IMG/VR virus record: IMGVR_UViG_3300047661_000045
Location: 1 to 21,182 of that record
DNA from: a virus
DNA length: 21,182 nt
Reading direction: 5' to 3' (one strand)
Position numbers and translations under genes: made by a program. Below the pieces are notes generated by a model. The model was not told where the DNA came from. It did no database searches and was given only the letters and a program-made list of their open reading frames with translations. Shown in pieces: positions 1,632 through 15,383 of the stretch (positions are counted from its first letter, which is position 1; the number at the start of each line of letters is the position of its first letter).

Positions 1632-1721
1632 GGAGAAGTACTCAAGTGGTGAAGAGGCGCCCCTGCTAAGGGTGTAGGTCGGGTAACCGGCGCGAGGGTT
1701 CAACTCCCTCCTTCTCCGCCA
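1632..1721 (+). tRNA. tRNA-Ser (anticodon GCU), with encoded CCA; integration target of the island
   Basis: The acceptor stem GGAGAAG (1632-1638) pairs with CTTCTCC (1711-1717), followed by G and CCA (1719-1721). The anticodon stem CGCCC/GGGTG (1658-1662 and 1670-1674) encloses CTGCTAA with anticodon GCT at 1665-1667. A long variable arm is present, as in serine tRNAs. Its last 23 bases are repeated at 15361-15383, so the island inserted in the 3' end and kept the tRNA whole. Confidence 0.97.
1699..1721 (+). repeat. attL: 23-bp direct repeat inside the 3' end of tRNA-Ser(GCU)
   Basis: Bases 1699-1721 (beginning TTCAACTCCCTCC, ending CTCCGCCA) are identical to 15361-15383. The match breaks at once on either side (G versus A at 1698/15360, G versus A at 1722/15384). 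It covers part of the T arm, the acceptor 3' strand and CCA, the usual tyrosine-integrase crossover region. Confidence 0.96.
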
Positions 1722-1727
1722 GAAACA

Positions 1728-1761
1728 AAGCTTGTAGCCGTCAAGGGTTACAGGCTTTTTT
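1728..1761 (+). terminator. Island-supplied terminator for the tRNA-Ser genes
   Basis: AGCTTGTAGCC (1729-1739) pairs with GGTTACAGGCT through an 11-bp stem with two G-T wobbles, followed directly by a run of T. The native tRNA terminator was pushed 13.7 kb away by the insertion, so this hairpin restores transcription termination downstream of the tRNA. Confidence 0.75.
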
Positions 1762-1782
1762 CTTGCCCTTTTATAAGCGTTT

Positions 1783-1822
1783 ACCCTTTAACTTACCCTT
1801 TACAGGTTTGAAACACCCTTTA
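1783..1822. promoter_or_regulatory. Left cluster of candidate integrase arm-type sites
   Basis: Three copies of ACCCTTTA start at 1783, 1795 and 1815, 60-100 bp inside attL. The middle copy belongs to a 13-bp sequence, TTACCCTTTACAG (1793-1805), that recurs exactly at 15237-15249 near attR. Repeats of one short motif flanking both crossover sites are what arm-binding domains of lambda/Tn916-type integrases recognise. The copies overlap the 3' end of the integrase gene. Confidence 0.45.
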
Positions 1823-2972
1823 TAAAGCCTTCCATGCGCTGCGCACTATCTTTTTTCATACGCTCTGACACATGACCGTAAACATTAAGTGTAAAGGCTG
1901 CTGTATGGTGTCCAAGGTTTTCTTGAACCGTCTTGATATCATCGCCGGACTGTAAAGAAGCTACAGCATACGTATGACGCAGATCATGGAAGCGCGTTTC
2001 TGACAAGCCTATGCTCTTTACTAAGAGCTTAAAATGTTTGTATACCGTGAAGTGAGCCAAGTGACCACCAATTTCATTAGTGAAAACAAGATTATCTTTA
2101 TTATCCCATGCCTGTCCAGCCTTTATATGCCATTCTGTCTGTGTTTTCTTTTGCTCTTGTAGAACCTTCATTACTGATGGTGCCGGAGTAATCGTACGGG
2201 TTTTATCGTTTTTAAGTGAACCAAATTTATATATACCTTTAATTTTTTGAAGCTGCTGATATATATAAATAGTTCCGTTTTCAAAGTCTATGCAGTCCCA
2301 TGTAAGACCGATAATTTCAGCTTGCCGCATACCTGTGAATATATCCACAAGATAAATTCGCTCATATTTATGCCCTTTTATAGCTTGCAAGAAAGCAGTT
2401 ATTTCATAGTCTTCTAATGGGTTGATTTTTGGCTTTTCAATCCGTGGGAGTTTACAAGCATCCGCTGGATTAAACTTAATATAACCTATCTCGATGGCCT
2501 GAGTAAGAGCCTTATGCACTACACCGTGAAGATTTAGTATTGTTTTAGGAGAAAGAGCCTTTTTATCATCCGAACCTTTATAAACGTCATTATAAAGTTT
2601 TTGAATTTCATGCGTACACAGAGCAGACAGCTTCACGGCTCCAAGGGCTGGCTTAATGTGGTTGTTTATATGCGATTGATACGACTTTAAGGTTAACGGC
2701 TTTATGTCACCCACATATTCATTAATCCAAATATCTAGCCAACTGCCAAAGGTCATTTTTGAAGGTTCCATATATATTCCTTCATCAATTGATATACAAG
2801 CCGCCTGTAATTTTTTTCGGACTTCCGCCTGAGTCTTCCCATACACAGATTTTTGAATTTGTTTTCCAGTACCGGGATCGCGACCTATTGTATAACGTGC
2901 TTCCCAAGTGCCGTCTTTTCGTTTTCTAATGCTTCCCCCGCCTTGCGCATTACGATTTGACTTTTTTGGCAT
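1800..2972 (-). CDS. int: Tyrosine-family site-specific integrase of the island
   Basis: A 390-residue recombinase that catalyses integration into, and with the excisionase excision from, tRNA-Ser(GCU). The N-terminal arm-binding domain (about residues 11-55, GGSIRKRKDGTWEARY) is of the AP2-like type. The core-binding domain (about 74-165) begins TFGSWLDIWI. The catalytic domain shows Arg216 (TGMRQAE), His329 and Arg332 (HDLRHTYA), His355 (ENLGHH) and the nucleophile Tyr365 (NVYGHV). Start: ATG at 2972, 8 bases after GGAG; an in-frame GTG at 2981 overlaps that ribosome-binding site and is unlikely. It is the first gene inside attL and is transcribed leftward, probably with the repressor. Confidence 0.95.
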   Translation of the reverse strand: MPKKSNRNAQGGGSIRKRKDGTWEARYTIGRDPGTGKQIQKSVYGKTQAEVRKKLQAACISIDEGIYMEPSKMTFGSWLDIWINEYVGDIKPLTLKSYQSHINNHIKPALGAVKLSALCTHEIQKLYNDVYKGSDDKKALSPKTILNLHGVVHKALTQAIEIGYIKFNPADACKLPRIEKPKINPLEDYEITAFLQAIKGHKYERIYLVDIFTGMRQAEIIGLTWDCIDFENGTIYIYQQLQKIKGIYKFGSLKNDKTRTITPAPSVMKVLQEQKKTQTEWHIKAGQAWDNKDNLVFTNEIGGHLAHFTVYKHFKLLVKSIGLSETRFHDLRHTYAVASLQSGDDIKTVQENLGHHTAAFTLNVYGHVSERMKKDSAQRMEGFIKGVSNL

Positions 2973-3004
2973 ACATATCACTCCTTTTTAAAAATAGATA
3001 CATG

Positions 3005-3033
3005 TTCACACAATGCACAGAATACACACAATA
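3005..3033 (-). repeat. Iteron array 1: three 9-bp CACASAATR units
   Basis: The plus strand reads CACACAATG (3007-3015), CACAGAATA (3016-3024), CACACAATA (3025-3033). The 29-bp stretch is an exact inverted copy of 15035-15063. It lies in the integrase leader, 33 bp upstream of the start codon, next to a small hairpin (TTCCCC/GGGGAA, 3038-3055). It is a candidate binding site for the excisionase, the replication protein or the integrase. Confidence 0.75.
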
Positions 3034-3091
3034 GGTTTTCCCCTGATTTGGGGAATAGCTTTATAGATACTTTTAAAATATAGAATGTCTT

Positions 3092-3118
3092 CACAGAATG
3101 CACACAATACACAGAATT
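3092..3118 (-). repeat. Iteron array 2: three 9-bp CACASAATR units
   Basis: The plus strand reads CACAGAATG (3092-3100), CACACAATA (3101-3109), CACAGAATT (3110-3118). The C/G at the fifth position alternates in the opposite order to array 1. It is in the same orientation as array 1 and is separated from it by a short hairpin and an AT-rich stretch. Confidence 0.7.
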
Positions 3119-3137
3119 AAATATTGTTTGAAATTTA

Positions 3138-3168
3138 GCCGTCTGCTTAATTGCAGGCGGCTTTTTTT
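3138..3168 (+). terminator. Rightward-oriented hairpin terminator between repressor and integrase
   Basis: GCCGTCTGC (3138-3146) pairs with GCAGGCGGC (3153-3161) through 9 bp including one wobble, followed by seven T. Its polarity is plus, opposite to the flanking leftward genes, so it would stop rightward transcription coming from the host side before it reaches the repressor. The T run overlaps the repressor stop codon. Confidence 0.6.
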
Positions 3169-3791
3169 CATAGGTCAACATCTATTAAGTCAGTTACTTT
3201 ATGTTGCTTAATAATTTTAAGAATTTTTTCTTTTATCCCATTCTCTAAATAAATGTTGACGTCTTCGCCGGAGATAATTAGTGCGTTTCCTTCTCCAAAT
3301 AAATCATCAACCGTTTTCTCACATTTTGTGTATTCTTCATCACGATCCAACATCAAACCAATTGCTTTTTTGAGCCTCTCTACTCTTTTGGGTCTTTCAT
3401 TAAGCAAATTTAGCTTTTCAACATCATGTGCTAAGGATAAAAACATTTCGTCAGTTAAGAGAGTATTCAAAAAGTTAGAAGTATACGAATGATTATTGCT
3501 TTTCATACGGCCTATAAATCGAAGCATTTTCACAGCGTTTTCCGATAAGCCAGTTTCCTTTGCAATGTTGTCATTTTCTAGTTTTTTGCAATCGGACGCT
3601 CCAAGAAGAAAATCGGTTGTCACGTCGAAATATGTGGCGAGCTGACAAACCGTTTCATAGTCGGGTCGGTTAGCACCATTTTCCCATTTGTTATATTTTG
3701 ACGCGTCAGGCATTCCTAATTCAGAAGCACAGTCTTTTTGGCTTAATCCTTTTGCTTTTCTCAATTCTGTTAATCGTTCATCAAATTTCAT
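3168..3791 (-). CDS. HTH_XRE (Cro/CI-type) repressor of the island
   Basis: A 207-residue DNA-binding protein. Residues 1-64 form a classical XRE helix-turn-helix (RLTELRKAKGLSQKDCASELGMPDASKYNKWENG). The C-terminal 130 residues are charged and helical and carry no recognisable LexA/S24 peptidase, so induction by RecA-stimulated self-cleavage is not supported. Antirepressor-type control, as in phage-inducible islands, would be an alternative. ATG at 3791 follows GGAGGTG by 5 bases. It is divergent from the replication/head operon, with perfect -35/-10 promoters and paired operators between them, so it very likely represses both its own and the rightward promoter. Confidence 0.85.
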   Translation of the reverse strand: MKFDERLTELRKAKGLSQKDCASELGMPDASKYNKWENGANRPDYETVCQLATYFDVTTDFLLGASDCKKLENDNIAKETGLSENAVKMLRFIGRMKSNNHSYTSNFLNTLLTDEMFLSLAHDVEKLNLLNERPKRVERLKKAIGLMLDRDEEYTKCEKTVDDLFGEGNALIISGEDVNIYLENGIKEKILKIIKQHKVTDLIDVDL

Positions 3792-3810
3792 ATTAGCACC
3801 TCCATATATT

Positions 3811-3838
3811 ATTATATAGAGTATATTTCAATTGTCAA
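3811..3838 (-). promoter_or_regulatory. Leftward repressor/integrase promoter with operator
   Basis: On the minus strand the -35 is TTGACA (3838-3833) and the -10 is TATAAT (3816-3811), with a 16-bp spacer. The operator TTTCAATTGTCAA (3826-3838) covers the -35. Its exact reverse complement covers the -35 of the opposing promoter. Confidence 0.8.
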
Positions 3839-3895
3839 TACATCATTGTTAAATTGCGTAATTTTATATATAAATAAAATAATTGAGTAATACTC

Positions 3896-3924
3896 TTGAC
3901 AATTGAAACAAAAGCAATTATAAT
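3896..3924 (+). promoter_or_regulatory. Rightward early promoter with operator
   Basis: TTGACA (3896-3901) and TATAAT (3919-3924) are both perfect consensus with an optimal 17-bp spacer. The operator TTGACAATTGAAA (3896-3908) is the exact reverse complement of the operator at 3826-3838, with a CAATTG core. This promoter should drive the rightward operon, and its strength implies a need for tight repression. A weaker related sequence, TTCAATTAA, lies at 3942-3950. Confidence 0.85.
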
Positions 3925-4020
3925 TTAATTATAGAGAAACATTCAATTAATAAACGTTAGTTAATGACTTTGATGTTATCGAAAGATATTTCCAAAGTTG
4001 AATAGGGGGAATTCTGTAAT

Positions 4021-4194
4021 TTGGCAAGAGATAGAAAGATTTCAAAGGAGCATAAAAGACTTGAAGAATCAATCAGCCCCAAAAATCAGTATGGCATTAC
4101 TGACCCGACACCGTACAAAGCAGTTTTACATATTAAACACGAACAACAATTGAAACGAGGTGGAAAAAATGGAGCGGCTAACAATATCGGTTGA
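4021..4194 (+). CDS. Small rightward-operon protein, 57 aa, TTG start
   Basis: A reading frame from TTG at 4021 encodes MARDRKISKEHKRLEESISP and continues with KNQYGITDPTPYKAVLHI. AGGGGGA lies 10 bases upstream, and this is the first gene after the early promoter. It overlaps the next gene by 26 bp in another frame, a typical compact phage arrangement. It is basic at the N-terminus. The D-PTPY-A motif resembles small proteins of unknown function that I associate with clostridial phages and integrative elements. I do not know its role. Confidence 0.6.
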   Translation: MARDRKISKEHKRLEESISPKNQYGITDPTPYKAVLHIKHEQQLKRGGKNGAANNIG

Positions 4195-4357
4195 AGAAAT
4201 GGCAAAAGAATTAGGAATCTCAAAGCCCACAGCGTACACGCTTGCAAATTCAGAGGGCTTCCCTATCTTAAAAATAGGAAAGCGCAAAGTAGTTCCGGTG
4301 CAAGGCTTACAAGAATGGGTTAAGAGAAATACAGGTACAGAAGCACAGCGTAATTAA
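4169..4357 (+). CDS. Excisionase-like HTH DNA-binding protein
   Basis: A 62-residue winged HTH of the excisionase/AlpA-like (HTH_17) type: LTISVEEMAKELGISKPTAY is the helix-turn-helix and FPILKIGKRKVVP the wing. It probably bends attachment-site DNA during excision and may also act as a regulator, as AlpA does in satellites. ATG at 4169 follows GAGGTGG; a GTG at 4160 in the same frame sits inside that ribosome-binding site and is not preferred. It is second in the early operon, which fits expression on induction. The iteron arrays near the integrase and attR are candidate targets. Confidence 0.8.
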   Translation: MERLTISVEEMAKELGISKPTAYTLANSEGFPILKIGKRKVVPVQGLQEWVKRNTGTEAQRN

Positions 4358-4370
4358 GGTGGTGAACGGC

Positions 4371-4820
4371 TTGACACAAGAGCAAATCAACAACATTCGG
4401 CAAGGGCTAGGAAAATATGCAACCTACAGGCGTTTTGTGGCACGCCGGGGCAAAGAACCCATCGACCCGATTACAGGTTACGGAGCAAAAGCAAATGACC
4501 CGACCACATGGGGTACGCTGGAACAAGCGCTTGAAGCTGTGGACATATATCACCTTGACGGTATTGGAGTTGAGCTGGGCGATGGTTTGTGCGGGGTTGA
4601 CCTTGACCATGTAATAGACGATAACGGACAGATCAGCGAACGTGCGCAGGAAATTATAACCACAATGGACAGTTACACCGAAATTAGTCCCAGTGGCACT
4701 GGCATACATATTTTATTTGCGGGTAGTTTGCCGGAAGGAACACGGCGCAAGGATGGCCTTGAAATGTATTCGGAAGGGCGGTATTTTACCGTGACAGGTA
4801 ATTTATATGAGCCTAAATAA
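4371..4820 (+). CDS. Primase-polymerase (AEP/PrimPol) domain protein, separated from its helicase
   Basis: A 149-residue archaeo-eukaryotic-primase-type domain that would prime and extend DNA during island replication. Visible motifs are GVDLDHV with metal-binding Asp77 and Asp79, SPSGTGIHI with His113, and GRYFTVTGN near the C-terminus, the three signature motifs of phage/plasmid PrimPols. TTG at 4371 is 8 bases after AAGGTGG and is taken as the start; GTG codons at 4359 and 4362 are alternatives, but they lie within that site. The domain is normally the N-terminus of one long protein. Here it ends with a stop at 4818-4820, overlapping by 14 bases the helicase gene in the +1 frame. Confidence 0.8.
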   Translation: MTQEQINNIRQGLGKYATYRRFVARRGKEPIDPITGYGAKANDPTTWGTLEQALEAVDIYHLDGIGVELGDGLCGVDLDHVIDDNGQISERAQEIITTMDSYTEISPSGTGIHILFAGSLPEGTRRKDGLEMYSEGRYFTVTGNLYEPK

Positions 4821-6681
4821 ACTTGAATTTCGCGCCGAGCAAGCCGCGCAGGTACATAAAAAGTATTTGGCAGCCGTACCGATACAGAAGTCGCCCGCCG
4901 CTCTGTCTTTACCATTATCTATTCCAGATGATGAACTGCTTAAAAAAATCAGTGCGTCAAAGAATAGTGCTAGTGTGGATATTTTATGGCGTGGTGACAT
5001 ATCCGCTTATAATTCCCACAGTGAAGCGGATATTGCCATGTGCAACATTCTTGCCTTTTGGACAGGCCGCGACGCAGGGCAGATGGATAGGCTTTACAGA
5101 TCATCCGGTTTGATGCGTGAAAAATGGGATAGACCGCAAAGTGGAAGTACATACGGTCAAATAACTATTCAAAAGGCTGTTGACGAATGTCGGGAAGTAT
5201 ATCAACCCGGATACCATCAAAGCGCCGAGCAGGATTTTAAAGGAATAACCGTTGAACCATGGGAAAAGCCTACACCGTTTGACGAGTATTCTACAGGGCC
5301 ATTTTCCAAAAATAGCTTGCCAAAGAGTTTGGAAGATATGGCCGAAGCATCCGCGACTGCGACACAAACACCATTGTCGATGAATATAGCCGCAGTATTA
5401 TCCGCTGCAGCTATCACCGTTCAGGGCAAATACAATGTGCAGATTACGAGTGATTACTCAGAACCATTAAATATTTATGTCGCCGCCGTTGCCCCGCCAG
5501 CTGAGCGAAAAAGCGCGATTTTACGCAGTGCAACACAGCCATTACAATTGTATGAAGCCAAACGGAACGAGCTGTTAAGACCGGATGTACTTCGTTCAGG
5601 CGCCGAGCTTGACATTCTTATGCGAAAGCAGGAGGAAGTAAAGAAAAAAGCGGCAAAGAGTGGCAACACCGCCGAATTAGAAGAAGTTTTGCGCGATATC
5701 GAGGATTTTGAACCAGTAAAGTTTGAACGTTTTATTTGTGATGATGCAACGCCCGAAGCCCTGACAAGTCTTATGGCAGATAATAACGGTTGCATAGGAC
5801 TGATATCCGCTGAAGGTGGGGTGTTTGCTAATATGAAAGGGCGATACCGTGAAAGCGGCGGCTCTGATATTGATGTTTATTTGAAGGCTCATGCGGGCGA
5901 CACAATTAGAATTGACAGAAAGTCACGACCTGCTGAATACATAAACAGTCCGTGTATGACTATGCTTTTGACAATACAGCCGGTGCTAATAGAAGGCATG
6001 ATGTCAAACCCGGAATTTAAGGGGCGTGGACTGACAGCAAGATTTATATATGTTGTTGTGGATGATGAATCAAGCCTTGTTGGGGTAAGAACAGCAACAG
6101 CTCCGGCTATTCCCCAAAATGTCAAAACAACTTATGAAAATGCGCTATTTAAAGCCCTTAACTACAGGCCACAAGAAACACAGCCACTCTTTTTATCCAG
6201 CAAGGCGGAACAATATAGGCAATCATTCTTTGAAACGATTGAACCCCAACTTAAAGAAGAACTGTATTTTATGAGTGACTGGGCAGGTAAGTTGCCGGGT
6301 GCAGTATGCAGGATTGCTGGCATTCTACATTGTTTCAGTAGCGAGAACCCAGCAGAAACGCAAATTAGTGGCGACACAATGCTTCATGCGATAGAACTGG
6401 GTTTTTGTTTTTTGCAACACGCACAGGCTGCATATGGAGCAATGGGCGGCGACCAAAATGCGGCGGCTGCAACATATGTTTTAAAACGAATTTCCGGCAT
6501 GGAAAGTATTACAAAGCGAAATTTACACCAGCTATGCCGTGGACGCTTTAAGAAGATTGACGAACTGGAACCGGTCATTAGTTTACTGATAGATCATGGT
6601 TATTTGAGAGAATCCACAGTGCCCACCGAGGGAGCAGGTAGAAAGCCAAGTCCGAAATATTTAATTAATCCGCTACTATAA
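4807..6681 (+). CDS. DUF3987-type replicative helicase with NrS-1-like primase C-terminal domain
   Basis: 624 residues. The first 130 (including WRGDISAYNSHSEADIAMCNILAFWTG, given in part, and SSGLMREKWDR) resemble the helicase-binding/primase C-terminal domain of phage NrS-1-type primase-polymerases. From about residue 180 it is a DUF3987 ATPase: a degenerate Walker A at APPAERKSA, then LISAEGGVF in the Walker B region. It should unwind DNA at the island origin together with the PrimPol. ATG at 4807 has only a weak AGG upstream and overlaps the primase stop, so it relies on translational coupling or on a frameshift fusing the two. Length is normal for the helicase part. Confidence 0.82.
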   Translation: MSLNKLEFRAEQAAQVHKKYLAAVPIQKSPAALSLPLSIPDDELLKKISASKNSASVDILWRGDISAYNSHSEADIAMCNILAFWTGRDAGQMDRLYRSSGLMREKWDRPQSGSTYGQITIQKAVDECREVYQPGYHQSAEQDFKGITVEPWEKPTPFDEYSTGPFSKNSLPKSLEDMAEASATATQTPLSMNIAAVLSAAAITVQGKYNVQITSDYSEPLNIYVAAVAPPAERKSAILRSATQPLQLYEAKRNELLRPDVLRSGAELDILMRKQEEVKKKAAKSGNTAELEEVLRDIEDFEPVKFERFICDDATPEALTSLMADNNGCIGLISAEGGVFANMKGRYRESGGSDIDVYLKAHAGDTIRIDRKSRPAEYINSPCMTMLLTIQPVLIEGMMSNPEFKGRGLTARFIYVVVDDESSLVGVRTATAPAIPQNVKTTYENALFKALNYRPQETQPLFLSSKAEQYRQSFFETIEPQLKEELYFMSDWAGKLPGAVCRIAGILHCFSSENPAETQISGDTMLHAIELGFCFLQHAQAAYGAMGGDQNAAAATYVLKRISGMESITKRNLHQLCRGRFKKIDELEPVISLLIDHGYLRESTVPTEGAGRKPSPKYLINPLL

Positions 6682-6720
6682 TCATTTCAAGCCCATTACT
6701 TTAGTACGTAAAAAATTTGA

Positions 6721-6752: not shown

Positions 6753-6764
6753 AAGAGGTAGACA

Positions 6765-7592
6765 ATGTATATTGTAATTCAAGAAATTCAGCTTAAAAAG
6801 CCAAATAAAAATGGAGCCTATAAGGAATTCAAGGTTGACACCATTTCATTCTCATTTAATGGTATTACCAAAACTCATTATTACTACAATGCCAATTACG
6901 CCGCCGGACGCTTTGAACGGCTTCACCTTGAAGCGTATAAAATCAGCTTACGCGAAAGCTACAGGGAGGACGGCATGGTTAAGGCAAAGCAGTGCGTCAT
7001 TGCAACAATCGGATATTATCAGCTTGCAGATGATTTTTGGCCTTTATACGACCTGATAGAATCCGGCTTAAGCCGTGTAGCCGGGATGTTTAGTGATACC
7101 GATAACCTTTATGACCTCGTAGAAGCCAAGATAAAGCCGTTGCGGGAAAGAATCAAGCGTGAATACCACAAGACGGATGAATATAAAACCATCCGTGAGC
7201 GGGATAAAGTCCAAAAGAAGTATCAAAAAGTCAAAGCAGCCTTTGCAAAGAAATACAGCGTTGACGCAGATGAATACGATTGTTGCTATGATATTTTCGG
7301 TCATGTGATGGAGCCGGACTACCTGGCGGAAATAATAAAAAAGGCTAATGCTTATAGTAGTTACTCGAATTATTCAAGTGGTAACTACAGTTACAGCGGT
7401 TCGTCCAGTGGAGGGGATTACAGTAGTTACCTTAAATCCAATTCAAGTAACTACACCGAGGAAGAAAAGCAAGCATTGAAAAAGTTCTACAAAAAACTTG
7501 CTATGGAATTTCACCCTGACAGAAATCCCGATACGGACACCACCAAGGAAATGCAGCTGATAAATAAGCTCAAAGATGAATGGAATTTGTAA
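6765..7592 (+). CDS. J-domain (DnaJ-like) protein of the island
   Basis: A 275-residue protein. The last 40 residues form a J-domain with the HPD motif at 250-252 (KKLAMEFHPDRNPDTD), which stimulates DnaK ATPase. Unusually the J-domain is C-terminal. Residues 1-200 are a helical, charged region with no family I can name. Residues 204-235 are a Ser/Tyr/Gly/Asn-rich linker (SSYSNYSSGNYSYSGSSSGG) whose DNA contains two copies of the GTAGTTAC-N16-GTAACTAC repeat. ATG at 6765 follows AGAGGT. Its position between replication and head genes suggests a role in recruiting host DnaK for replication or head assembly. Confidence 0.75.
   Translation: MYIVIQEIQLKKPNKNGAYKEFKVDTISFSFNGITKTHYYYNANYAAGRFERLHLEAYKISLRESYREDGMVKAKQCVIATIGYYQLADDFWPLYDLIESGLSRVAGMFSDTDNLYDLVEAKIKPLRERIKREYHKTDEYKTIRERDKVQKKYQKVKAAFAKKYSVDADEYDCCYDIFGHVMEPDYLAEIIKKANAYSSYSNYSSGNYSYSGSSSGGDYSSYLKSNSSNYTEEEKQALKKFYKKLAMEFHPDRNPDTDTTKEMQLINKLKDEWNL
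7357..7388 (+). repeat. Inverted pair 2 (GTAGTTAC-N16-GTAACTAC) inside the J-domain gene
   Basis: Perfect 8-bp inverted arms at 7357-7364 and 7381-7388 with a 16-bp spacer. It falls in the Ser/Tyr-rich linker codons. Confidence 0.8.
7423..7454 (+). repeat. Inverted pair 3 (GTAGTTAC-N16-GTAACTAC) inside the J-domain gene
   Basis: Perfect 8-bp inverted arms at 7423-7430 and 7447-7454, again with 16 bp between them, although the spacer sequence differs from that of pair 2. Confidence 0.8.
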
Positions 7593-7624
7593 GTAGTTAT
7601 CGCATAATAATTTTTGGTAACTAC
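7593..7624 (+). repeat. Inverted pair 4 (GTAGTTAT-N16-GTAACTAC), upstream of the 55-aa gene
   Basis: The arms at 7593-7600 and 7617-7624 are again 24 bp apart. The right arm is followed by A and AGGAG, the ribosome-binding site of the next gene. The whole block aligns with pair 1, including CG at the spacer start and a T-rich spacer. Confidence 0.78.
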
Positions 7625-7636
7625 AAGGAGAGTGAG

Positions 7637-7804
7637 GTGAACACAATACCTATGTTTAATATTTATCTGAAAAATGGCGATTTTGTCGAAGCAAAAAGTT
7701 TTTGCCCTTACGAATGGGATGAGCACTTTATCAAAGCCGAGGGCATAGAAGGCAAAACCTATTATGTCAATCGTGATTTTATTGTGAAAATCGTTGAGGA
7801 CTAA
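7637..7804 (+). CDS. Small hypothetical protein, 55 aa
   Basis: I do not recognise the family. The sequence MNTIPMFNIYLKNGDFVEAK and the alternating pattern after it suggest a small all-beta domain. GTG at 7637 follows AAGGAG by 6 bases and is the preferred start; ATG at 7652 is possible. It lies between the J-domain and portal genes in the same direction, with repeat pair 4 just upstream of its ribosome-binding site. Confidence 0.6.
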   Translation: MNTIPMFNIYLKNGDFVEAKSFCPYEWDEHFIKAEGIEGKTYYVNRDFIVKIVED

Positions 7805-7810
7805 TTTTAC

Positions 7811-7836: not shown

Positions 7837-7853
7837 AAGAGGTGATATAAACA

Positions 7854-9041
7854 ATGAGTATATTTTCTAAAATATTTAGATCTAATCAGCCGCAGCAAAC
7901 AGTACCCGCTGTGGTAATGGGTGCAACCCCATATTTTACACCCTTCAGTGGCAATGCTTATGAATCGGATATTTACCGCGCCTCAGTCGATGCTATAGCA
8001 CGGCATGTCGCAAGGCTTAACGGCTCGCACATTATAAAGACAGGCAACGGCAGGCAGCCGGGCGATGATGCTTTAAACTATCTACTTCAAATCCGCCCAA
8101 ATCCTTATATGTCGGCCTTCGATATGATTTATAAACTGACTACGCATTATTACATATACAATAACGCTTTTGCACTTCTACAGAGGGATGGCAGCGGCAA
8201 CCTTACTGGAATATTCCCGTTGAATGTAACAAGCATGGAATTTATGACTGACCCAACAGATACGTTATATTGTCAATTTTACTTCCGCAACGGGCAAAAC
8301 TGCATTTTGCCCTATGCCGACATAATCCACCTTCGCCGGAACTTCAATGGCAATGACTTACTAGGTGACAGCAACACAGCCATTCTTCCGGCTCTGCAAC
8401 TGGCACAAACGCAGAGCGAAGGTATAACCGCAGGTATTCGGGCAGGTGCGAGCATTCGCGGACTACTGAAATATAATCAAGTGCTGGCACCAGATGCGCT
8501 GAAAAGGGAGAAAGCAGCGTTTATCGCAGATTATATGAACATTTCAAATAACGGCGGTATAGCTGCCATTGACAGTAAGGCGGATTATGTGCCGCTTGAA
8601 TCCAAGCCATACATTATAGACGCCGACCAACTCGCCGCCGTGAAATCAAAAATTTATGAGTACCTAGGCATTTCTGAAGATGTTGTGAGTAGTAGCTATG
8701 AGGAAGATGTTGGCACGGCATTTTATGAATCAGTTGTTGAACCGTTCGCCGCACAAATATCGCAGGAATACACAGCGAAGATTTTTACACCCATTGAACA
8801 ACTATACGGAAACATGATTATTTTTGAAGCCGGTTCGATGGATTATGCTTCATATGAAACCCGTGTTGCCACTCTGACGGCGGCGCTTCCAATGGGCTTA
8901 TTCAGTGTTGATGAAGCCCGCGAAATCCTAAACATGCCGCCTATTGGGGGCGACGAGGGCGCAAAGAGGTTGCAAACCTTAAATGTAGTGCAGGCAGATA
9001 AAGCTGCACAATACCAAGGTGTGGGAGGTTCACAGCAATGA
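7854..9041 (+). CDS. HK97-family portal protein
   Basis: A 395-residue portal, the dodecameric ring at the unique capsid vertex through which DNA enters and to which the connector binds. YESDIYRASVDAIARHVARL near the start, NPYMSAFDMIYKLTTHYYIYNNAF and LPYADIIHLRR are characteristic of the family, as is the C-terminal ALPMGLFSVDEAREILNMPP segment. Length is typical. ATG at 7854 follows AGAGGTGAT. It overlaps the protease gene by 4 bases (ATGA), indicating translational coupling in a head operon. Confidence 0.95.
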   Translation: MSIFSKIFRSNQPQQTVPAVVMGATPYFTPFSGNAYESDIYRASVDAIARHVARLNGSHIIKTGNGRQPGDDALNYLLQIRPNPYMSAFDMIYKLTTHYYIYNNAFALLQRDGSGNLTGIFPLNVTSMEFMTDPTDTLYCQFYFRNGQNCILPYADIIHLRRNFNGNDLLGDSNTAILPALQLAQTQSEGITAGIRAGASIRGLLKYNQVLAPDALKREKAAFIADYMNISNNGGIAAIDSKADYVPLESKPYIIDADQLAAVKSKIYEYLGISEDVVSSSYEEDVGTAFYESVVEPFAAQISQEYTAKIFTPIEQLYGNMIIFEAGSMDYASYETRVATLTAALPMGLFSVDEAREILNMPPIGGDEGAKRLQTLNVVQADKAAQYQGVGGSQQ

Positions 9042-9616
9042 AAGAAACCCGTATTTGCGAAATAAGAGCCGCCGATCCGGCAGGTGAAAACGGCCTTATA
9101 TTAGAGGGAACGCCGATTGTTTTCAATCAGCCTACCACCATAAACGACCCGAAAGGTAAGTTTGTGGAGATCATCAAGCCGGGAGCGCTGGCAAGCGCAG
9201 ACCTGACAGACACACGTTTACTTTATAACCACGACACAAGTAAGGTACCACTTGCAAAAGCTCCAAAGACTATGCAGCTTGAAAACAGTCCGGTAGGGCT
9301 TCGGATGGTTGCACAACTTCCAAATACGGAAGAAGCACGCAGCGTTCACACAGCAGTGCAGCGCGGTGACTTGTCAGGTATGAGCTTTTCTTTCAAAGTG
9401 CCACTCGGGGGCGATAGTTACGACCCAAAGACAAACACCCGAACAATAAATAAAATTGACAAGGTGTATGAAATTAGTGTCGTTCCGTTCCCTGCCTACC
9501 CTCAAACGTCGGTTGAAGCGCGGGCGGCAATCGACGAAAGCAGTGCAACATTCCAAGACCCCAAAAAAGCAGAAGCCCGTATAAAAATTAACCAAATATT
9601 AAAAAGGAGCTTTTAA
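9038..9616 (+). CDS. HK97-family prohead protease (peptidase S78/U35 type)
   Basis: A 192-residue maturation protease that cleaves the scaffold-like N-terminus of the capsid protein during head assembly. The active-site His65 is seen in LLYNHD and Ser113 in GDLSGMSFSF, with the IKPGAL motif upstream and YEISVVPFPAYP after it, all as in the family. It overlaps the portal gene by 4 bases and is followed 3 bp later by the capsid gene. Confidence 0.95.
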   Translation: MKETRICEIRAADPAGENGLILEGTPIVFNQPTTINDPKGKFVEIIKPGALASADLTDTRLLYNHDTSKVPLAKAPKTMQLENSPVGLRMVAQLPNTEEARSVHTAVQRGDLSGMSFSFKVPLGGDSYDPKTNTRTINKIDKVYEISVVPFPAYPQTSVEARAAIDESSATFQDPKKAEARIKINQILKRSF

Positions 9617-9619
9617 ACT

Positions 9620-10843
9620 ATGAAATTTTCTGATAAAGCCGAAGCATTCAACTTTTATCGCACATCAACCGCCGAGGTAATAGAAACCCGTGCCACCGAA
9701 ATTGGCAGGCTGATTGATGCCGATGCCACAGCGGATGTTTCCGCACTAAACATTGAACTTGACGGCTTGAAAGATGCCAAGACAAGCATCGAGCAGCGCA
9801 GTGCAATGAAGGACAAGCTGAAAGGATTCAATCCTATTACAGGTCGCAATTTTGATGATAAGCCGGAACAGCGCGACGATGACAATATTTTTGGCAGTCG
9901 TGAATACAGGGGTGCATTTTTCAAGCAAATGCTGAACCAACCACTTTCAAAAGATGAATCAGCAATTTTTGACAGAGCGCAGAACCAAGCACATATTGAG
10001 CGCAGAGACGCTTTTACAGGCGTAACAAGTGGCGCAGCGGTTATTCCAACGCAGACGCTTGACGAAGTTGTTAAAAAAGCAGTCACACAGGGCAATATTC
10101 TTCAATATGTGCGACAGTTCCGTATTCCGGCTAATCTGTCAATACCGGTTGCAACACCCGAAGATACCGCAGCGTGGCATGCTGAAGGCGAAATAGTTAC
10201 TCCGAGTACAAACACACCGGCAAAGGTATCATTTAGCGCATACGAGCTTTTGAAGGTGTTCAGCCTGTCAGTGGCAAGCAACGCAATGAGTATACAGGCA
10301 TTTGAAGCATATCTGACAACTGAACTTTCACGTACGATTATGGCAGCAATCAACACCGGTGTATTTAGCGGTGTTGGCACCACGCAGCCTACAGGTATTT
10401 TACCCGGCATTACATGGGGTATGACCAACAGTGCCACATTTGCTTCCACAGGCATTAAATTTGCTGATATGTTAGGACTTGCCGCAATGCTGAAACGTGG
10501 CTATGCTCAAGGTGCAGTGTGGGCTATGAACAATACAACGCTTTTCAATCGGATCATGTCTGTTGTTGATTCAATTGGCAGACCAATGTTTACAGACCCG
10601 ACAAACGGCGGCGTTGGCTACATACTGGGCAAGCCTGTTGTAATTGATGATTTTATGCCGGATGATACAATCCTTTTTGGCAACTTCCAGTATTACGGTG
10701 TGAACATGCCACAGGATATACTTCTTGAAGTGTCAAGGGAATCTAGTTTCAAACAAGGTTTGATTGACTACCGTTCAATGGCTGTAGCAGATGCAAAACC
10801 AATTGTATCGGAAGCATTTCTTAAATTAACAGTTGGCGCGTAA
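9620..10843 (+). CDS. HK97-fold major capsid protein
   Basis: 407 residues. Residues 10-75 are a helical delta/scaffold domain (EVIETRATEIGRLIDADATA onward), normally removed by the prohead protease. The mature HK97 shell domain begins near residue 130 (RDAFTGVTSGAAVIPTQTLDEVV), with the E-loop and P-domain typical of the fold, a conserved GTTQPTGI and a late ILFGNFQYYGV strand. Cleavage is expected between about residues 110 and 132. AAAAAGGAG lies about 10 bases before ATG 9620. Carrying its own capsid is the central feature that separates capsid-forming satellites from those that remodel helper capsids. Confidence 0.95.
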   Translation: MKFSDKAEAFNFYRTSTAEVIETRATEIGRLIDADATADVSALNIELDGLKDAKTSIEQRSAMKDKLKGFNPITGRNFDDKPEQRDDDNIFGSREYRGAFFKQMLNQPLSKDESAIFDRAQNQAHIERRDAFTGVTSGAAVIPTQTLDEVVKKAVTQGNILQYVRQFRIPANLSIPVATPEDTAAWHAEGEIVTPSTNTPAKVSFSAYELLKVFSLSVASNAMSIQAFEAYLTTELSRTIMAAINTGVFSGVGTTQPTGILPGITWGMTNSATFASTGIKFADMLGLAAMLKRGYAQGAVWAMNNTTLFNRIMSVVDSIGRPMFTDPTNGGVGYILGKPVVIDDFMPDDTILFGNFQYYGVNMPQDILLEVSRESSFKQGLIDYRSMAVADAKPIVSEAFLKLTVGA

Positions 10844-10857
10844 AATAAATTGAGTAT

Positions 10858-10889
10858 TGCCGGTATACTGCATATGTGGTGTACCGGCA
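10858..10889 (+). terminator. Hairpin after the capsid gene (partial terminator/attenuator)
   Basis: TGCCGGTATAC (10858-10868) pairs with GTGTACCGGCA (10879-10889) through 11 bp including one wobble, followed by TTATTCTTT. It separates the abundantly needed capsid from the downstream connector and terminase genes, so it may reduce their expression. It could also stabilise the 3' end of the capsid mRNA. Confidence 0.6.
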
Positions 10890-10914
10890 TTATTCTTTAA
10901 ATGGAGGAATTAAA

Positions 10915-11196
10915 ATGGCAATATTAACGCTAGATGAGGCATATGAAGCATTAAGACTTACTCCGGGTGATTTTGATGTTTTATTGCAATCTTATATTGA
11001 TACAATGCCTGATTATCTGCTTGCGAAGACAGGCAGTTCATGGGGAGACAGTACAGCAGCAGGATATGGTATTGCCAAGACAGCCGCAAAGTTTATTATT
11101 CTGCAATGGTTTGATATGCAACCAGATAATCAGATTGAAATCGAAAGTTTGTTAGGTATATTATCAGTTATCGCCCGGAGTAATAATAATGGCTAA
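10915..11196 (+). CDS. Gp6-like head-tail connector protein
   Basis: A 93-residue helical adaptor of the HK97 gp6/DNA-packaging family, which forms a ring under the portal and begins the interface to the tail. MAILTLDEAYEALRLTPGDF and the run of short helices ending WFDMQPDNQIEIESLLGIL fit the family. ATG at 10915 has a good TGGAGGA at 8 bases; an upstream in-frame GTG at 10876 lies within the hairpin and is rejected. In a satellite this protein would be the surface presented to helper tails. It overlaps the HNH gene by 8 bases. Confidence 0.8.
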   Translation: MAILTLDEAYEALRLTPGDFDVLLQSYIDTMPDYLLAKTGSSWGDSTAAGYGIAKTAAKFIILQWFDMQPDNQIEIESLLGILSVIARSNNNG

Positions 11197-11530
11197 AGAT
11201 TATGCAAAGGACTTCTATCACAGCAAAACATGGGTAAAGTGCCGAAGTAGCTTTATGACAAGTAAGTATTATTTATGTGAAAGATGCGAGGGTGTTGCGG
11301 TTATCTGCCACCATAAGACGCATATAACACCTGCAAACATCAACGACCCGAACATTACACTGTCATGGGACAACCTTCAAGCGCTGTGTGTAGAGTGTCA
11401 CAATGTTGTACATGGCAATTCACAAGTAACACAAGATGGATTGAGGTTTGACGCGAACGGAAACTTAATTAAAGCCCCCGGCAATAAAAATCCTGCAAAT
11501 TTCCCAGAGACCAGCGCCAGTCATAAATAA
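11189..11530 (+). CDS. HNH endonuclease of the packaging module
   Basis: 113 residues with a zinc-binding CERC pair (about residues 31-34), the HNH core CHHKTHI with the first catalytic His, and the second CVECHNVVHG metal/His motif. HNH proteins next to terminases in HK97-like phages assist terminase cleavage at cos sites, so this gene points to cos-type packaging. It is immediately upstream of the terminase pair, as usual. It overlaps the connector, and the start follows CGGAG. Confidence 0.92.
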   Translation: MAKDYAKDFYHSKTWVKCRSSFMTSKYYLCERCEGVAVICHHKTHITPANINDPNITLSWDNLQALCVECHNVVHGNSQVTQDGLRFDANGNLIKAPGNKNPANFPETSASHK

Positions 11531-11563
11531 ACCCCTCCATGACTTTTTTATATTACGAGGGGT
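11531..11563 (+). other. Stem-loop between HNH and small terminase genes
   Basis: ACCCCTC (11531-11537) pairs perfectly with GAGGGGT (11557-11563) across a 19-base loop containing six T. It is not followed by a T run on the plus strand, so it is a weak terminator candidate. A cos-associated or translational element is possible. Confidence 0.35.
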
Positions 11564-11602
11564 ATAAAAATACTATATGTATTATATCTGAGGTGATAAA
11601 AC

Positions 11603-11920
11603 ATGGCATTAACAAAGGTAAAAAAGCTGATTGACGCAATTTCAGAGGAAAGAAAACCTGTTGCAGAAAGCCTTTTAAAAGAATTGTCTTTCATGGAACG
11701 AACATTATCGGAACTCAAAAAGACAGTGCAGGAAGTGGGCGCGGTTGAACATTTTGAAAACGGAAAGCAGAAGTTTGTCCGCGAAAATCCCGCTCTGAAA
11801 TCCTATAATACGACCATTCAGCGGTATGCACTGATTTATAAACAGTTTGTTGACCTGTTGCCTGTCGCAGTCAAGCCCGAAGCCAAGGACGATCTAATGG
11901 TATTCATGGGAAAGAAGTGA
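11603..11920 (+). CDS. Small terminase subunit (P27-like)
   Basis: 105 helical residues. The C-terminal pattern VRENPALKSYNTTIQRYALI followed by LLPVA is characteristic of P27-family small terminases, which recognise the packaging site and recruit the large subunit. ATG at 11603 follows GAGGTGA. Four bases separate it from the large terminase gene. Having its own small subunit means the island can direct packaging of its own DNA. Confidence 0.85.
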   Translation: MALTKVKKLIDAISEERKPVAESLLKELSFMERTLSELKKTVQEVGAVEHFENGKQKFVRENPALKSYNTTIQRYALIYKQFVDLLPVAVKPEAKDDLMVFMGKK

Positions 11921-11924
11921 TTTT

Positions 11925-13565
11925 GTGAACCCAATACTTGAATATTGGAATGGAATTCAGTCCAAACGCTTCATTGTTTCAAAAAGAGTATATAAACTTT
12001 ATGAAAAGCTGGCAGACGAGATTAATAAACCCACAAGTCAGTACATATACGATGAATCCAAGGCAAACCGCGCAATAGAGTTTATAGAACAGTTCTGTAA
12101 GCATTCTAAAGGCGAATGGGCGGGGCAATCTGTTAGGTTAGAACTATTCCAAAGGGCATTTATTTGCGCTCTATTTGGCTTTGTGGATGCTCAAACGGGC
12201 TATAGAAGATACCGTGAAACCCTGTTTTTAGTAGCCCGTAAGAATGGAAAAAGCACCATGCTAGCGGCAATTGCTCTATACTGTATGATTGCAGATGGTG
12301 AAAGCGGTGCGGAGATATATTCCACAGCCACAAAACGCGATCAGGCGCGACTTCTATTCGATGAAGCCATAAACATGGTGAAACAATCGCCCGCGCTCTC
12401 AAAGCATATCAGGAAGCGCAAAACCGACCTGTATTTTGATGCGGGTATGTCAAAGTTCCAACCGTTGGGGCGCAATTCTGACACATTGGACGGTCTGAAT
12501 GCTTCACTTGTTATCATGGACGAGCTTCACGGCGTCAAAGACCGTAACCTATATGAAGTTATGAAACAGTCACAGAGCGCACGCAGACAGCCTTTATTGA
12601 TTATGATAACCACAGCGGGGACTGTGCGCGAATGTATTTTTGATGATATGTACTCCTATGCCTGCAATGTCATTGATGGCACATTCAAAGACGAGAGCTT
12701 TCTTCCAGTTCTCTATGAGTTGGACACCGCCGAGGAATGGGATGATCCCAAAGCATGGCCAAAGGCAAACCCCGGACTGGGAACCATTAAAAAACTTGAT
12801 GATCTCCAGCGTAAGGTTGAACGTGCCAAGAGCAGCGCCGCCGATCTGCCCGGTTTACTCTGTAAAGACTTCAATATCAGGCAGAATGCAGCCACGGCAT
12901 GGCTTACGTTCGATAATATAGAGAATAAAGAAACCTTCGATCTTGAAAAATTCCGTAATTGTTATGCTATCGGTGGCGCTGATCTGTCAATTACAACTGA
13001 TCTGACGAGCGCAACGCTTCTTTTTGTGGATAAGGAAACAGGAGAACGTTATATTCATCAAATGTACTGGTTGCCGCATGACAGCTTCTATGAGCGTGTA
13101 CAACGTGACAAAATACCATACGATATATGGAAGGACAAAGGATTGTTGCGGCTCTGCAACGGCAACACAATAGATTACAGCGATGTGACGGCATGGTTTA
13201 ATGAGATGCTGAACGATTACGGCATAACTCCGCTATGGGTTTACTACGACAGTTACAGCGCCCGGTACTGGGTTGATGAAATGCAGCAGTACGGCTATAA
13301 GATGGAACGCTGCATTCAGGGTGCGAAGACGCTGTCACTTCCAATGCAGCAGATGGGTGCCGACCTGAAGGCGAAGAAAATCAATTATAACAACTCGCCT
13401 ATGCTAAAATGGTGCCTGTCAAACACCGGCATTTTGACCGACCGCAACGGGAACATCGTTCCTATAAAGTCACAACAGCCCAAAATGAGGATTGATGGCA
13501 TGGCGTCGATGTTGGATGCTTATGTTGGATTATTTGAACATTATGAGGAATTTTTAAGAGCGTGA
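11925..13565 (+). CDS. Large terminase subunit (ATPase and nuclease)
   Basis: 546 residues. The N-terminal packaging ATPase has Walker A LVARKNGKST (about 103-111), Walker B SLVIMDE (194-200) and the coupling motif MITTAGT (227-233). The C-terminal RNase H-like nuclease has Asp353 (GGADLSITTDLTSA), YYDSYSARYW and the late DGMASMLDAY. Together these translocate DNA into the prohead and cut it. GTG at 11925 is the only reasonable start; its ribosome-binding site is weak (AAGAAGTGA), suggesting coupling to the small subunit. Length is full. Confidence 0.95.
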   Translation: MNPILEYWNGIQSKRFIVSKRVYKLYEKLADEINKPTSQYIYDESKANRAIEFIEQFCKHSKGEWAGQSVRLELFQRAFICALFGFVDAQTGYRRYRETLFLVARKNGKSTMLAAIALYCMIADGESGAEIYSTATKRDQARLLFDEAINMVKQSPALSKHIRKRKTDLYFDAGMSKFQPLGRNSDTLDGLNASLVIMDELHGVKDRNLYEVMKQSQSARRQPLLIMITTAGTVRECIFDDMYSYACNVIDGTFKDESFLPVLYELDTAEEWDDPKAWPKANPGLGTIKKLDDLQRKVERAKSSAADLPGLLCKDFNIRQNAATAWLTFDNIENKETFDLEKFRNCYAIGGADLSITTDLTSATLLFVDKETGERYIHQMYWLPHDSFYERVQRDKIPYDIWKDKGLLRLCNGNTIDYSDVTAWFNEMLNDYGITPLWVYYDSYSARYWVDEMQQYGYKMERCIQGAKTLSLPMQQMGADLKAKKINYNNSPMLKWCLSNTGILTDRNGNIVPIKSQQPKMRIDGMASMLDAYVGLFEHYEEFLRA

Positions 13566-13582
13566 AAGTGAGGCTAATCTTT

Positions 13583-14137
13583 ATGAAATTATTTCACAAC
13601 ACAGATATAGAAAATCTAGAAAGCATTAAAAAGCAGGGACTTGTAGCAAGCAAAAGCAAAAAGATGGGTACAAAAGCAACCAGTATATGCTTAGCAGACT
13701 TCAAACCTCAAAATATCCCCGAATATGTTGACTTTGTGAAGTGCATATACTTAACGCCATGTAATAGTGGTCTTATAAATGGAGGATTTGAGCAAAAGTC
13801 TTTTGAAACAGAAGATGATATTTTAAGTAATATGCGTCCTCTTATGATTAAATCTCAAGACTTAAACAATAAAAAATTGTATTGTGCTTCAGTACTTATT
13901 TCTCTAAAACTCACAAACCTAATAAACGAAAACTATTGGGGAGTAGGCAGAGAAGAAAAGTTGACTGAAATGTGCAATTCATCTCGTTATAAAAGCCTAT
14001 GTTCTAAGTATTGGGCAAGCTTTAGACCGTTTGATAAGTATTTATTGAAATATGGAAAAGTGCCAGTAGTAGAAGGCAATGAGAATGTTGAAGTGCTTTA
14101 TTTTGATGATATATCGCCTGATAAAATACAATTCTGA
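13583..14137 (+). CDS. Possible ADP-ribosyltransferase-fold (DarT-like) cargo protein
   Basis: A 184-residue protein, more AT-rich than the head genes before it and located last in that operon, where satellites and phages often keep cargo. The N-terminus KLFHNTDIENLESIKKQGLV follows the H-x-T...NL..I...G pattern of DarT/KptA-type ADP-ribosyltransferase folds. PEYVDFVKCIYLTP resembles the DarT YV-F segment, and the C-terminal NVEVLYFDDISPDKI has a Glu in a strand where DarT has its catalytic Glu. No DarG-like macrodomain antitoxin is next to it. ATG 13583 follows GAGG; an upstream GTG (13562) is possible. The similarity is judged by eye only. Confidence 0.4.
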   Translation: MKLFHNTDIENLESIKKQGLVASKSKKMGTKATSICLADFKPQNIPEYVDFVKCIYLTPCNSGLINGGFEQKSFETEDDILSNMRPLMIKSQDLNNKKLYCASVLISLKLTNLINENYWGVGREEKLTEMCNSSRYKSLCSKYWASFRPFDKYLLKYGKVPVVEGNENVEVLYFDDISPDKIQF

Positions 14138-14174
14138 AGTCTGAAAAGAGCAGAGACTACCGAGTAAAGCAAAG

Positions 14175-14212
14175 GCCGTCCCGATATGGGGCGGCTTATT
14201 TTTGTTATTTTT
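14175..14212 (+). terminator. Terminator of the rightward head/cargo operon
   Basis: GCCGTCCC (14175-14182) pairs with GGGGCGGC (14188-14195) around a 5-base loop, followed by TTATTTTTGTTATTTTT. A strong intrinsic terminator 37 bp after the cargo gene. Confidence 0.88.
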
Positions 14213-14305
14213 AAAGTTTGGAAATACCTATGCTATGCAAATATTCTGTGAACAGGTTTGTATTTTTAAATTATGTCGAATAAGAAAATATTATAAAAAT
14301 AAGTG

Positions 14306-14347
14306 TTGACTTATGTGGATACATATTATATAATATATGTGGATACA
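14306..14347 (+). promoter_or_regulatory. Promoter of the RHH gene with a directly repeated operator
   Basis: The -35 TTGACT (14306-14311) and -10 TATAAT (14329-14334) have a 17-bp spacer. The 12-bp sequence TATGTGGATACA occurs twice in direct orientation, at 14312-14323 and 14336-14347, 24 bp apart, flanking the -10. Direct repeats at the promoter of a ribbon-helix-helix gene are the usual autoregulatory operator for such proteins. Confidence 0.78.
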
Positions 14348-14366
14348 AAATAAAGGAGATGAAACG

Positions 14367-14537
14367 GTGCCGAGAACAGGTAGACCAACAGACGACCCCA
14401 AGACCTTGAACACAAGAATAAGGCTGTCAAAAGCAGATGTTGAGATGCTCGAATTCTGTTGTAAAGCCACAGGTTTAAACAAAGCAGATGTGATACGCAA
14501 AGGAATTTGTAAGGTTTATGAAGAAGTCAAGGAATAA
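14367..14537 (+). CDS. Ribbon-helix-helix (CopG/Arc-like) DNA-binding protein, 56 aa
   Basis: The sequence MPRTGRPTDDPKTLNTRIRL and the following helices (SKADVEMLEFCCKATGLNKA, then DVIRKGI) are a complete RHH domain. NTRIRLS is the DNA-contacting beta strand; the GL-N-K-A-D-VIR segment forms the second helix. GTG at 14367 follows AAAGGAG by 8 bases; an in-frame ATG at 14337 lies within the promoter and is excluded. It has its own promoter downstream of a strong terminator, so it can be expressed when the main operon is silent. It could be a lysogeny-phase regulator or an antitoxin-type protein. Confidence 0.85.
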   Translation: MPRTGRPTDDPKTLNTRIRLSKADVEMLEFCCKATGLNKADVIRKGICKVYEEVKE

Positions 14538-14541
14538 CAAA

Positions 14542-14658
14542 GGCTCCTGCCACCGTCGAAAGTTTGCAGGAGCCACGCAGGAACCAACCACCTAAGGAAA
14601 GCCCCTAGCACCATTATTATATCATGCTGGGGGCTGACCTTCAACCATAATTTGAAGG
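14542..14658 (+). ncRNA. Three consecutive hairpins: structured leader or small RNA candidate
   Basis: Hairpin 1: GGCTCCTGC (14542-14550) with GCAGGAGCC (14566-14574), 9 bp, perfect. Hairpin 2: AGCCCCTAGCA (14600-14610) with TGCTGGGGGCT (14625-14635), 11 bp with one wobble. Hairpin 3: CCTTCAA (14638-14644) with TTGAAGG (14652-14658), whose 3' arm carries the ribosome-binding GAAGGGA of the next gene. Linker sequences such as ACCAACCACCTAAGG are unpaired. Neither of the first two hairpins is followed by a T run, so simple terminators are unlikely. I do not recognise a known RNA class. Confidence 0.5.
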
Positions 14659-14670
14659 GAAGTTTTATAA

Positions 14671-14970
14671 ATGGCAGAAATTATAGTATTAGAATCATAT
14701 ACCAAGAACGTAACAATTGAAAATGGGCTTTTAGATTTGCAAATGTTTCTTGAACGGATTAATTTTGTTCAACAAGATATTGAGGAAGAATATTTTAACT
14801 TCGATAATCCTGAAGACCATGAATATGACCTTATATGGGGATATCACCGCGGCAAAGTAAAAGCAAACATTGTAAGCGATTATATATTTAAAATGCGCGA
14901 GAAGTTGGCTGAACTTGACGCCTATATGGAGCAAGCCAAAGCGCTACAGGAGTGCGATGCAGTGCAGTGA
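14671..14970 (+). CDS. Hypothetical acidic protein, 99 aa
   Basis: MAEIIVLESYTKNVTIENGL begins a short, acidic, mostly helical protein (C-terminal helix MREKLAELDAYMEQAKALQE). I do not recognise the family. ATG 14671 follows GAAGGGA, which is part of hairpin 3, so translation may be controlled by leader folding. It is probably co-transcribed with the RHH gene and is followed 19 bp later by a terminator. Confidence 0.65.
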   Translation: MAEIIVLESYTKNVTIENGLLDLQMFLERINFVQQDIEEEYFNFDNPEDHEYDLIWGYHRGKVKANIVSDYIFKMREKLAELDAYMEQAKALQECDAVQ

Positions 14971-14988
14971 ACAGCTTATGATAACAAG

Positions 14989-15021
14989 GCGGGGCGTAAT
15001 GCTCCGCTTTTCTCTTTTTTG
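14989..15021 (+). terminator. Rightward terminator after the 99-aa gene
   Basis: GCGGGGC (14989-14995) pairs with GCTCCGC (15001-15007) around GTAAT, followed by TTTTCTCTTTTTT. An inverted copy of the same sequence forms the leftward terminator at 15201-15221. Confidence 0.88.
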
Positions 15022-15034
15022 CCCACAATTCAGC

Positions 15035-15063
15035 TATTGTGTGTATTCTGTGCATTGTGTGAA
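15035..15063 (+). repeat. Iteron array 3: exact inverted copy of array 1
   Basis: Read as the reverse complement, the three 9-bp units are CACACAATG, CACAGAATA and CACACAATA, identical to 3007-3033 including two flanking bases (29 bp). It lies 298 bp from attR, so in an excised circle it faces array 1 about 1.6 kb away across the att site. Confidence 0.75.
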
Positions 15064-15189
15064 GACATCTCTATTTTGAGAATCTAGTGAAAATACGCTT
15101 TAAGGTATATTTTTAAATAATTATTATTATTTATATATGAATACTATATTATAAACAAAGGGTGAATAATTGTGGATAAAAAAGAACGG

Positions 15190-15221
15190 TGAGAAATAAA
15201 GGCGGAGCATTACGCCCCACC
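15190..15221 (-). terminator. Leftward terminator near attR
   Basis: On the minus strand GGTGGGGC (15221-15214) pairs with GCTCCGCC (15208-15201) around GTAAT, followed by TTTATTTCTC. It would stop host transcription entering the island from the right. Confidence 0.65.
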
Positions 15222-15249
15222 CTTATACCCTTATTTTTACCCTTTACAG
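15219..15249. promoter_or_regulatory. Right cluster of candidate integrase arm-type sites
   Basis: ACCCTTAT at 15219 and 15227 and ACCCTTTA at 15239; the last is part of TTACCCTTTACAG (15237-15249), an exact copy of 1793-1805. The orientation is the same as at the left end. Confidence 0.45.
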
Positions 15250-15360
15250 CTTTTGCTTTAATAATATACAATTGCACATAATTGTATAGCAGCACATTCT
15301 ATACCACAATATATAGCGCTATTTGTAAATAGTTATACGCAATTTATTCATGCTATATAA

Positions 15361-15383
15361 TTCAACTCCCTCCTTCTCCGCCA
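15361..15383 (+). repeat. attR: 23-bp direct repeat of the tRNA-Ser(GCU) 3' end
   Basis: Identical to 1699-1721. It is not part of a second tRNA; nothing tRNA-like precedes it. Confidence 0.96.

Follow-up and report, generated by a model that had tools for sequence, protein, structure and literature searches.

A tail-less Bacillota island with its own HK97-type head genes, a diverged gp6-type adaptor and no head-completion gene

The virus record analysed here, referred to below as the window, is 21,182 bp long, and an integrated island inside it spans 13,662 bp between att repeats. Its genes and their relatives indicate that the island belongs to a lineage of tail-less satellites that make their own capsids and are widespread in Bacillota; this member lacks the usual closure gene of the head. 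The gene set and helper-tail dependence of cf-PICIs have been described (PMC10690885, PMC11389934, PMC13230959), and cf-PICIs take only tails from the helper (PMC10690885, PMC11389934). Because a helper is understood to be needed only for tails, the range of usable helpers should depend on the head-tail joint. A closure-less member of a group in which nearly all relatives have a closure protein makes it testable which ring forms the helper joint. cf-PICIs are possibly present in staphylococci (PMC12597102) and have been predicted in Pseudolactococcus (PMC13335696). The first-pass annotation of this DNA had suggested a lineage possibly not yet described, which is not supported in view of these Gram-positive reports. 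New here are the form without a closure gene and the breadth of sampling of the Bacillota family.

The ends of the island are fixed by a 23-bp att duplication, as had been proposed. The repeat is exact and its copies are spaced 13,662 bp apart.

1632..1721, plus strand: tRNA-Ser(GCT) gene, that is tRNA-Ser(GCU), whose 3' end is the attachment site (ARAGORN)
1699..1721, plus strand: attL, 23 bp, TTCAACTCCCTCCTTCTCCGCCA, the last 23 bp of the tRNA-Ser gene (exact repeat)
1781..1802, plus strand: two copies of TTACCCTTTA at the left end, starting at 1781 and 1793 (motif count)
15237..15246, plus strand: one copy of TTACCCTTTA at the right end (motif count)
15361..15383, plus strand: attR, 23 bp, identical to attL (exact repeat)

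The integrase gene adjoins attL, so that an integrase with flanking att repeats, one of the features of cf-PICIs, is present. By chance, 0.11 copies of TTACCCTTTA would be expected in the window; there are three, and all lie just inside the island ends. L126, which has the integrase most similar to that of the window (520 bits), also carries the motif at either end. These copies are probably integrase arm sites. A 57-nt inverted repeat, 84% complementary, lies near both island ends (2978-3034 and 15034-15090). About 20 relatives are likewise att-bounded and measure 12-15.4 kb by their direct repeats. Their sites are tRNA-Val, tRNA-Arg, tmRNA and a recurrent ATGGGCGGCATGATGTAA, which we read as the 3' end of groEL from its Gly-Gly-Met-Met-stop ending. 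A second element with the tRNA-Ser site of the window was not found among the relatives collected.

Pfam and PHROGs matches gave the following list of island genes.

1800..2981, minus strand: tyrosine integrase (PF00589 and PF14659; phrog_1, E=1e-72)
3168..3791, minus strand: HTH repressor in a Stl/CI-like position (PF01381, phrog_8)
4160..4357, plus strand: excisionase-like HTH protein in the AlpA position (PF12728, HTH_17; phrog_66)
4359..4820, plus strand: primase domain, the upstream part of a divided primase-helicase (phrog_13901/1829)
4807..6681, plus strand: helicase part, NrS-1-like HBD and DUF3987 (PF22763, PF13148)
6765..7592, plus strand: J-domain protein (PF00226, E=6e-6, just under the Pfam cut-off; phrog_32441)
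7580..7804, plus strand: small ORF of 74 aa (no Pfam or PHROGs family)
7854..9041, plus strand: portal (PF04860, E=2e-51)
9038..9616, plus strand: prohead protease, S78 (PF04586, E=9e-33)
9620..10843, plus strand: HK97-type major capsid protein (PF05065, E=7e-41)
10912..11196, plus strand: gp6-type head-tail adaptor (Ad1), unusually diverged (phrog_40; weak PF05135)
11189..11530, plus strand: HNH endonuclease of the packaging module (PF01844, phrog_119)
11603..11920, plus strand: TerS (phrog_1066, unnamed, E=8e-28; phrog_2343, TerS, E=1e-6)
11925..13565, plus strand: TerL (PF03354 and PF20441; phrog_9, E=3e-164)
13562..14137, plus strand: 191-aa ORF in the usual head-completion slot (weak DarT-like N-terminus, E=0.012)
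14337..14537, plus strand: small repressor-like protein (phrog_876)
14671..14970, plus strand: 99-aa ORF (phrog_24806, E=0.023 only)

Every gene named in the first-pass annotation (integrase, repressor, excisionase, PrimPol/helicase, portal, protease, capsid, connector, HNH, TerS and TerL) was recovered by Pfam or PHROGs. That list was otherwise right and had left out the genes at 13562-14970 and the J-domain protein at 6765-7592. The 4160..4357 protein matches HTH_17 and phrog_66 clearly and the AlpA model PF05930 at E=0.054 only. The J-domain gene stands between the replication and head genes; phrog_32441 is a phage family of unknown function, and no counterpart was present among the relatives collected. 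Pfam, PHROGs and tail-gene profiles detected no family of tail or lysis proteins within the island, in agreement with the earlier reading. Markers of the proposed spore-forming clostridial host, a GPR spore protease and TopB, were also recovered (Pfam). The window TopB is at most 64% identical to those of the Clostridia searched (about 490 genomes).

The cf-PICI features found in the window include its own portal, protease, major capsid protein, adaptor, HNH, TerS and TerL, and the head genes are all open reading frames. Compared with the head genes of its sister locus L008 (TerL 85% identical), third codon positions show 0.49-0.63 differences per site and first plus second positions 0.11-0.35. 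This large excess at third positions indicates purifying selection on the head genes.

Relatives were collected by capsid and TerL scans of viral contigs, which gave 4, at least 557 (the best 80 were kept) and 32 loci. Genomes of named organisms added 55 capsid loci, of which a few, at about 30% identity, were tailed prophages. The named organisms include Clostridium, Cohnella, Niallia, Priestia, Alkalicoccus, Alicyclobacillus and Staphylococcus, and also Macrococcoides, Sporomusa, Acetobacterium, Oscillospiraceae, Lachnospiraceae and others. About 130 tail-less relatives, nearly all from Bacillota, are among the loci collected, and the tail-less head lineage thus extends over many Bacillota families, gut Clostridia included. 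The order portal-protease-capsid-adaptor-HNH-TerS-TerL was seen in 129 loci and in 7 permuted contigs. The tailed relatives have the reverse order, with TerL before capsid, in 16 of 16 cases. Profiles for major tail protein, tape measure and sheath matched every one of the 16 tailed-order loci but no tail-less locus. When 129 non-core ORFs of the relatives were scanned as a batch, regulators, replication genes, methylase and toxin-like cargo were returned; tail families were absent from the most frequent matches.

These data bear on the idea that the island is a recent deletion derivative of a tailed prophage which has lost its tail and lysis genes. All head genes do have tailed-phage homologues, and the TerL of the tailed Caldibacillus phage CBP1 is 53% identical. 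However, the capsid is 42-71% identical to those of tail-less loci and at most 28.7% to that of any annotated phage, and the annotated phages with capsid matches are records nearly all of phage size. The gene order is unlike that of every tailed relative examined. In the TerL tree (70 rows), a single branch (SH-aLRT 91) separates the 54 tail-less sequences from the rest, and none of 500 shuffles came out as low. A capsid tree had two changes of the tail label and long tailed branches, and we did not rely on it for ancestry. The first-pass annotation had named the finding that would mark the island as a deletion derivative, namely close relatives with tail and lysis genes between the same repeats. 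The search for these was negative among the relatives collected, none of which was found at this tRNA-Ser site, and about 130 relatives share the tail-less module and its order. Order, profiles and the TerL tree revealed neither a TerL-before-portal arrangement nor tailed close relatives, and we rejected a tailed-prophage remnant as highly improbable. The earlier proposal of a tail-less capsid-forming satellite, as opposed to a deletion derivative, is thus upheld by the relatives and the TerL tree; the use of helper tails, which was part of it, we infer.

In L126, L014 and other loci TerL is followed by a short protein of the phage head-completion family PF05521. With a profile of this type, 133 TerL-bearing loci gave a match, and five of these are tailed. 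The gene is present in 128 of the 131 tail-less loci with enough sequence, usually directly after TerL. The three without it are the window, L120 and L158. A full-sensitivity profile search of all six frames of the window detected no PF05521-type head-completion protein, and the head closure or completion connector is therefore the cf-PICI feature that is absent. The HK97 head module had been described as complete, which does not agree with this result. The description of a single gp6-like connector is correct for the window copy and incorrect for the relatives, which normally have two connector genes. Since L008 retains the completion gene, the loss is most simply placed on the window's own branch. 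In L118, L124, L034 and L036 the head-completion gene lies upstream of portal, and L124 has a second copy after TerL. Tail-completion-type connectors were found by profiles among the tail-less loci only in L064, L076, L084, L094/L211 and L155, and the same profiles found none in the window.

The usual place of the completion gene is taken in the window by the 191-aa ORF, which lies close behind TerL and belongs to the same operon. Its position, exactly where the head operon of relatives ends with the completion gene, would suit a functional replacement of the head-completion protein, in which case a helper closure protein would not be needed. We consider this very unlikely. The N-terminus is weakly DarT-like and the gene is AT-rich like cargo (32.8% GC vs 44.3% for the head module). 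It has no similarity to the head-completion profile, and no relatives were found in viral contigs. A single-sequence fold was uninformative (pLDDT 33). RNA folding of 14137-14190, a segment that stops short of the T-run at the end of this ORF, gave nothing beyond chance.

The adaptor matches PF05135 only weakly. phrog_40 is matched by 26 of 26 members of the adaptor family. The AF2 model has a pLDDT of 92.5 and its best PDB match is HK97 gp6 (TM 0.67, probability 1.0; the E-value alone is not significant). By family match, model and structural match, this protein is a true gp6-type adaptor. With 12 outgroup loci, gp6 showed 21 window-only and 8 L008-only changes, compared to 88 window-only and 154 L008-only changes in the other six head genes together. 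An excess on the window side is seen in gp6 and in no other head gene (Fisher p=0.00025; the comparison was unplanned and made after seeing the alignment). It would fit a new partner of gp6 as well as a relaxation of constraint.

A second feature of the window is its divided primase-helicase. The primase (4359-4820) and helicase (4807-6681) genes overlap by 14 nt in different frames, so both parts of the Pri-Rep replication protein of cf-PICIs are present, as two ORFs. In the best-matching relatives the primase-helicase is a single ORF of about 760-810 aa, and most family members have one ORF. The junction falls where the relatives read through. The nearest relatives of the two halves differ, being L046 for the primase half and L011 for the helicase half. 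The split may come from an error of assembly or from a mutation, or the two genes may be a workable arrangement.

Two conserved features, the completion gene and the primase-helicase, are therefore altered in one copy, as might be expected of a decaying satellite of the same ancestry, immobile after the loss of its head closure and of an unbroken primase-helicase. The change in gp6 fits relaxed constraint, and L120, which is also without the completion gene, has a short portal ORF. On the other hand, the other head and packaging genes, the integrase and the control genes are all open and conserved, and the primase and helicase parts are each intact as separate ORFs. A small assembly error could account for the split, and the 191-aa ORF still closely follows TerL within the same operon. 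We regard decay as a real, if less favoured, possibility.

With modest confidence we prefer a working cf-PICI-like satellite to which the helper would supply both the closure protein and the tail. Because the head-completion connector was searched for and not found, we say only that the island would work like a cf-PICI and do not claim cf-PICI membership proper. The integrase and Xis would move the island into and out of tRNA-Ser(GCU). After induction, the island primase and helicase would replicate its DNA, the island would build its own HK97-type procapsid, and HNH, TerS and TerL would fill this with the island's own DNA. A helper phage would supply tail and lysis, completing particles. As the island has no completion protein of its own, the helper most likely supplies the closure protein too, and this protein may dock on the island's remodelled gp6 ring. 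We tentatively suggest that the satellite might have shifted its helper joint one ring up, so that the remodelled gp6 ring is exposed and the closure protein and tail both come from the helper.

The island resembles cf-PICIs in being a small integrated island with integrase, repressor and primase/helicase (gene set as in PMC10690885 and PMC13230959), and in having its own capsid, protease, portal, adaptor, HNH, TerS and TerL without tail or lysis genes. It differs from them in the missing head-completion protein, the diverged adaptor and the split primase-helicase. The Bacillota tail-less elements, such as L008, L126 (Oscillospiraceae), L119/L143 (Cohnella), L124 (Priestia) and L136/L138 (Staphylococcus), have an orthologous head module in the same order, with identities to the window of roughly 65-85% for TerL and roughly 45-71% for the capsid. 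Unlike the window, they carry PF05521 and mostly a single primase-helicase ORF. The Streptomyces satellites Mulch and Flayer also have their own capsid and packaging genes, but are without a primase and have virulent helpers (PMC10690885). SaPI-type PICIs share the arrangement of integrase, repressor and primase; they use helper capsid proteins, whereas the window island has its own. TscT and DUF771 are known from SaPIs. This type of cargo occurs in a few relatives of the window, with three ORF matches to each of the two families; these ORFs probably belong to the staphylococcal loci L134, L136 and L138.

The Vibrio cf-PISP satellite-plasmids are also tail-less with HK97-type head and packaging genes, but are episomal with ParA/RepA, both of which the window island lacks (PMC13230959). 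Among the relatives, L057, L207, L211 and L212 are closed contigs with end repeats of 118-127 bp that carry the tail-less head module and ParA. Circular contigs might be taken for excised islands. However, ParA is encoded by four of the five that have end repeats, which makes a plasmid-like nature the better reading, and they were not used as evidence of excision. About 20 other tail-less loci also have ParA, e.g. L129 (Bacillus ectoiniformans) and L133 and L139 (Lachnospiraceae). We read the ParA-bearing loci as plasmid-like capsid-forming satellites in Bacillota, resembling the Vibrio cf-PISP (PMC13230959). Several of them have a short tyrosine recombinase between capsid/adaptor and TerL.
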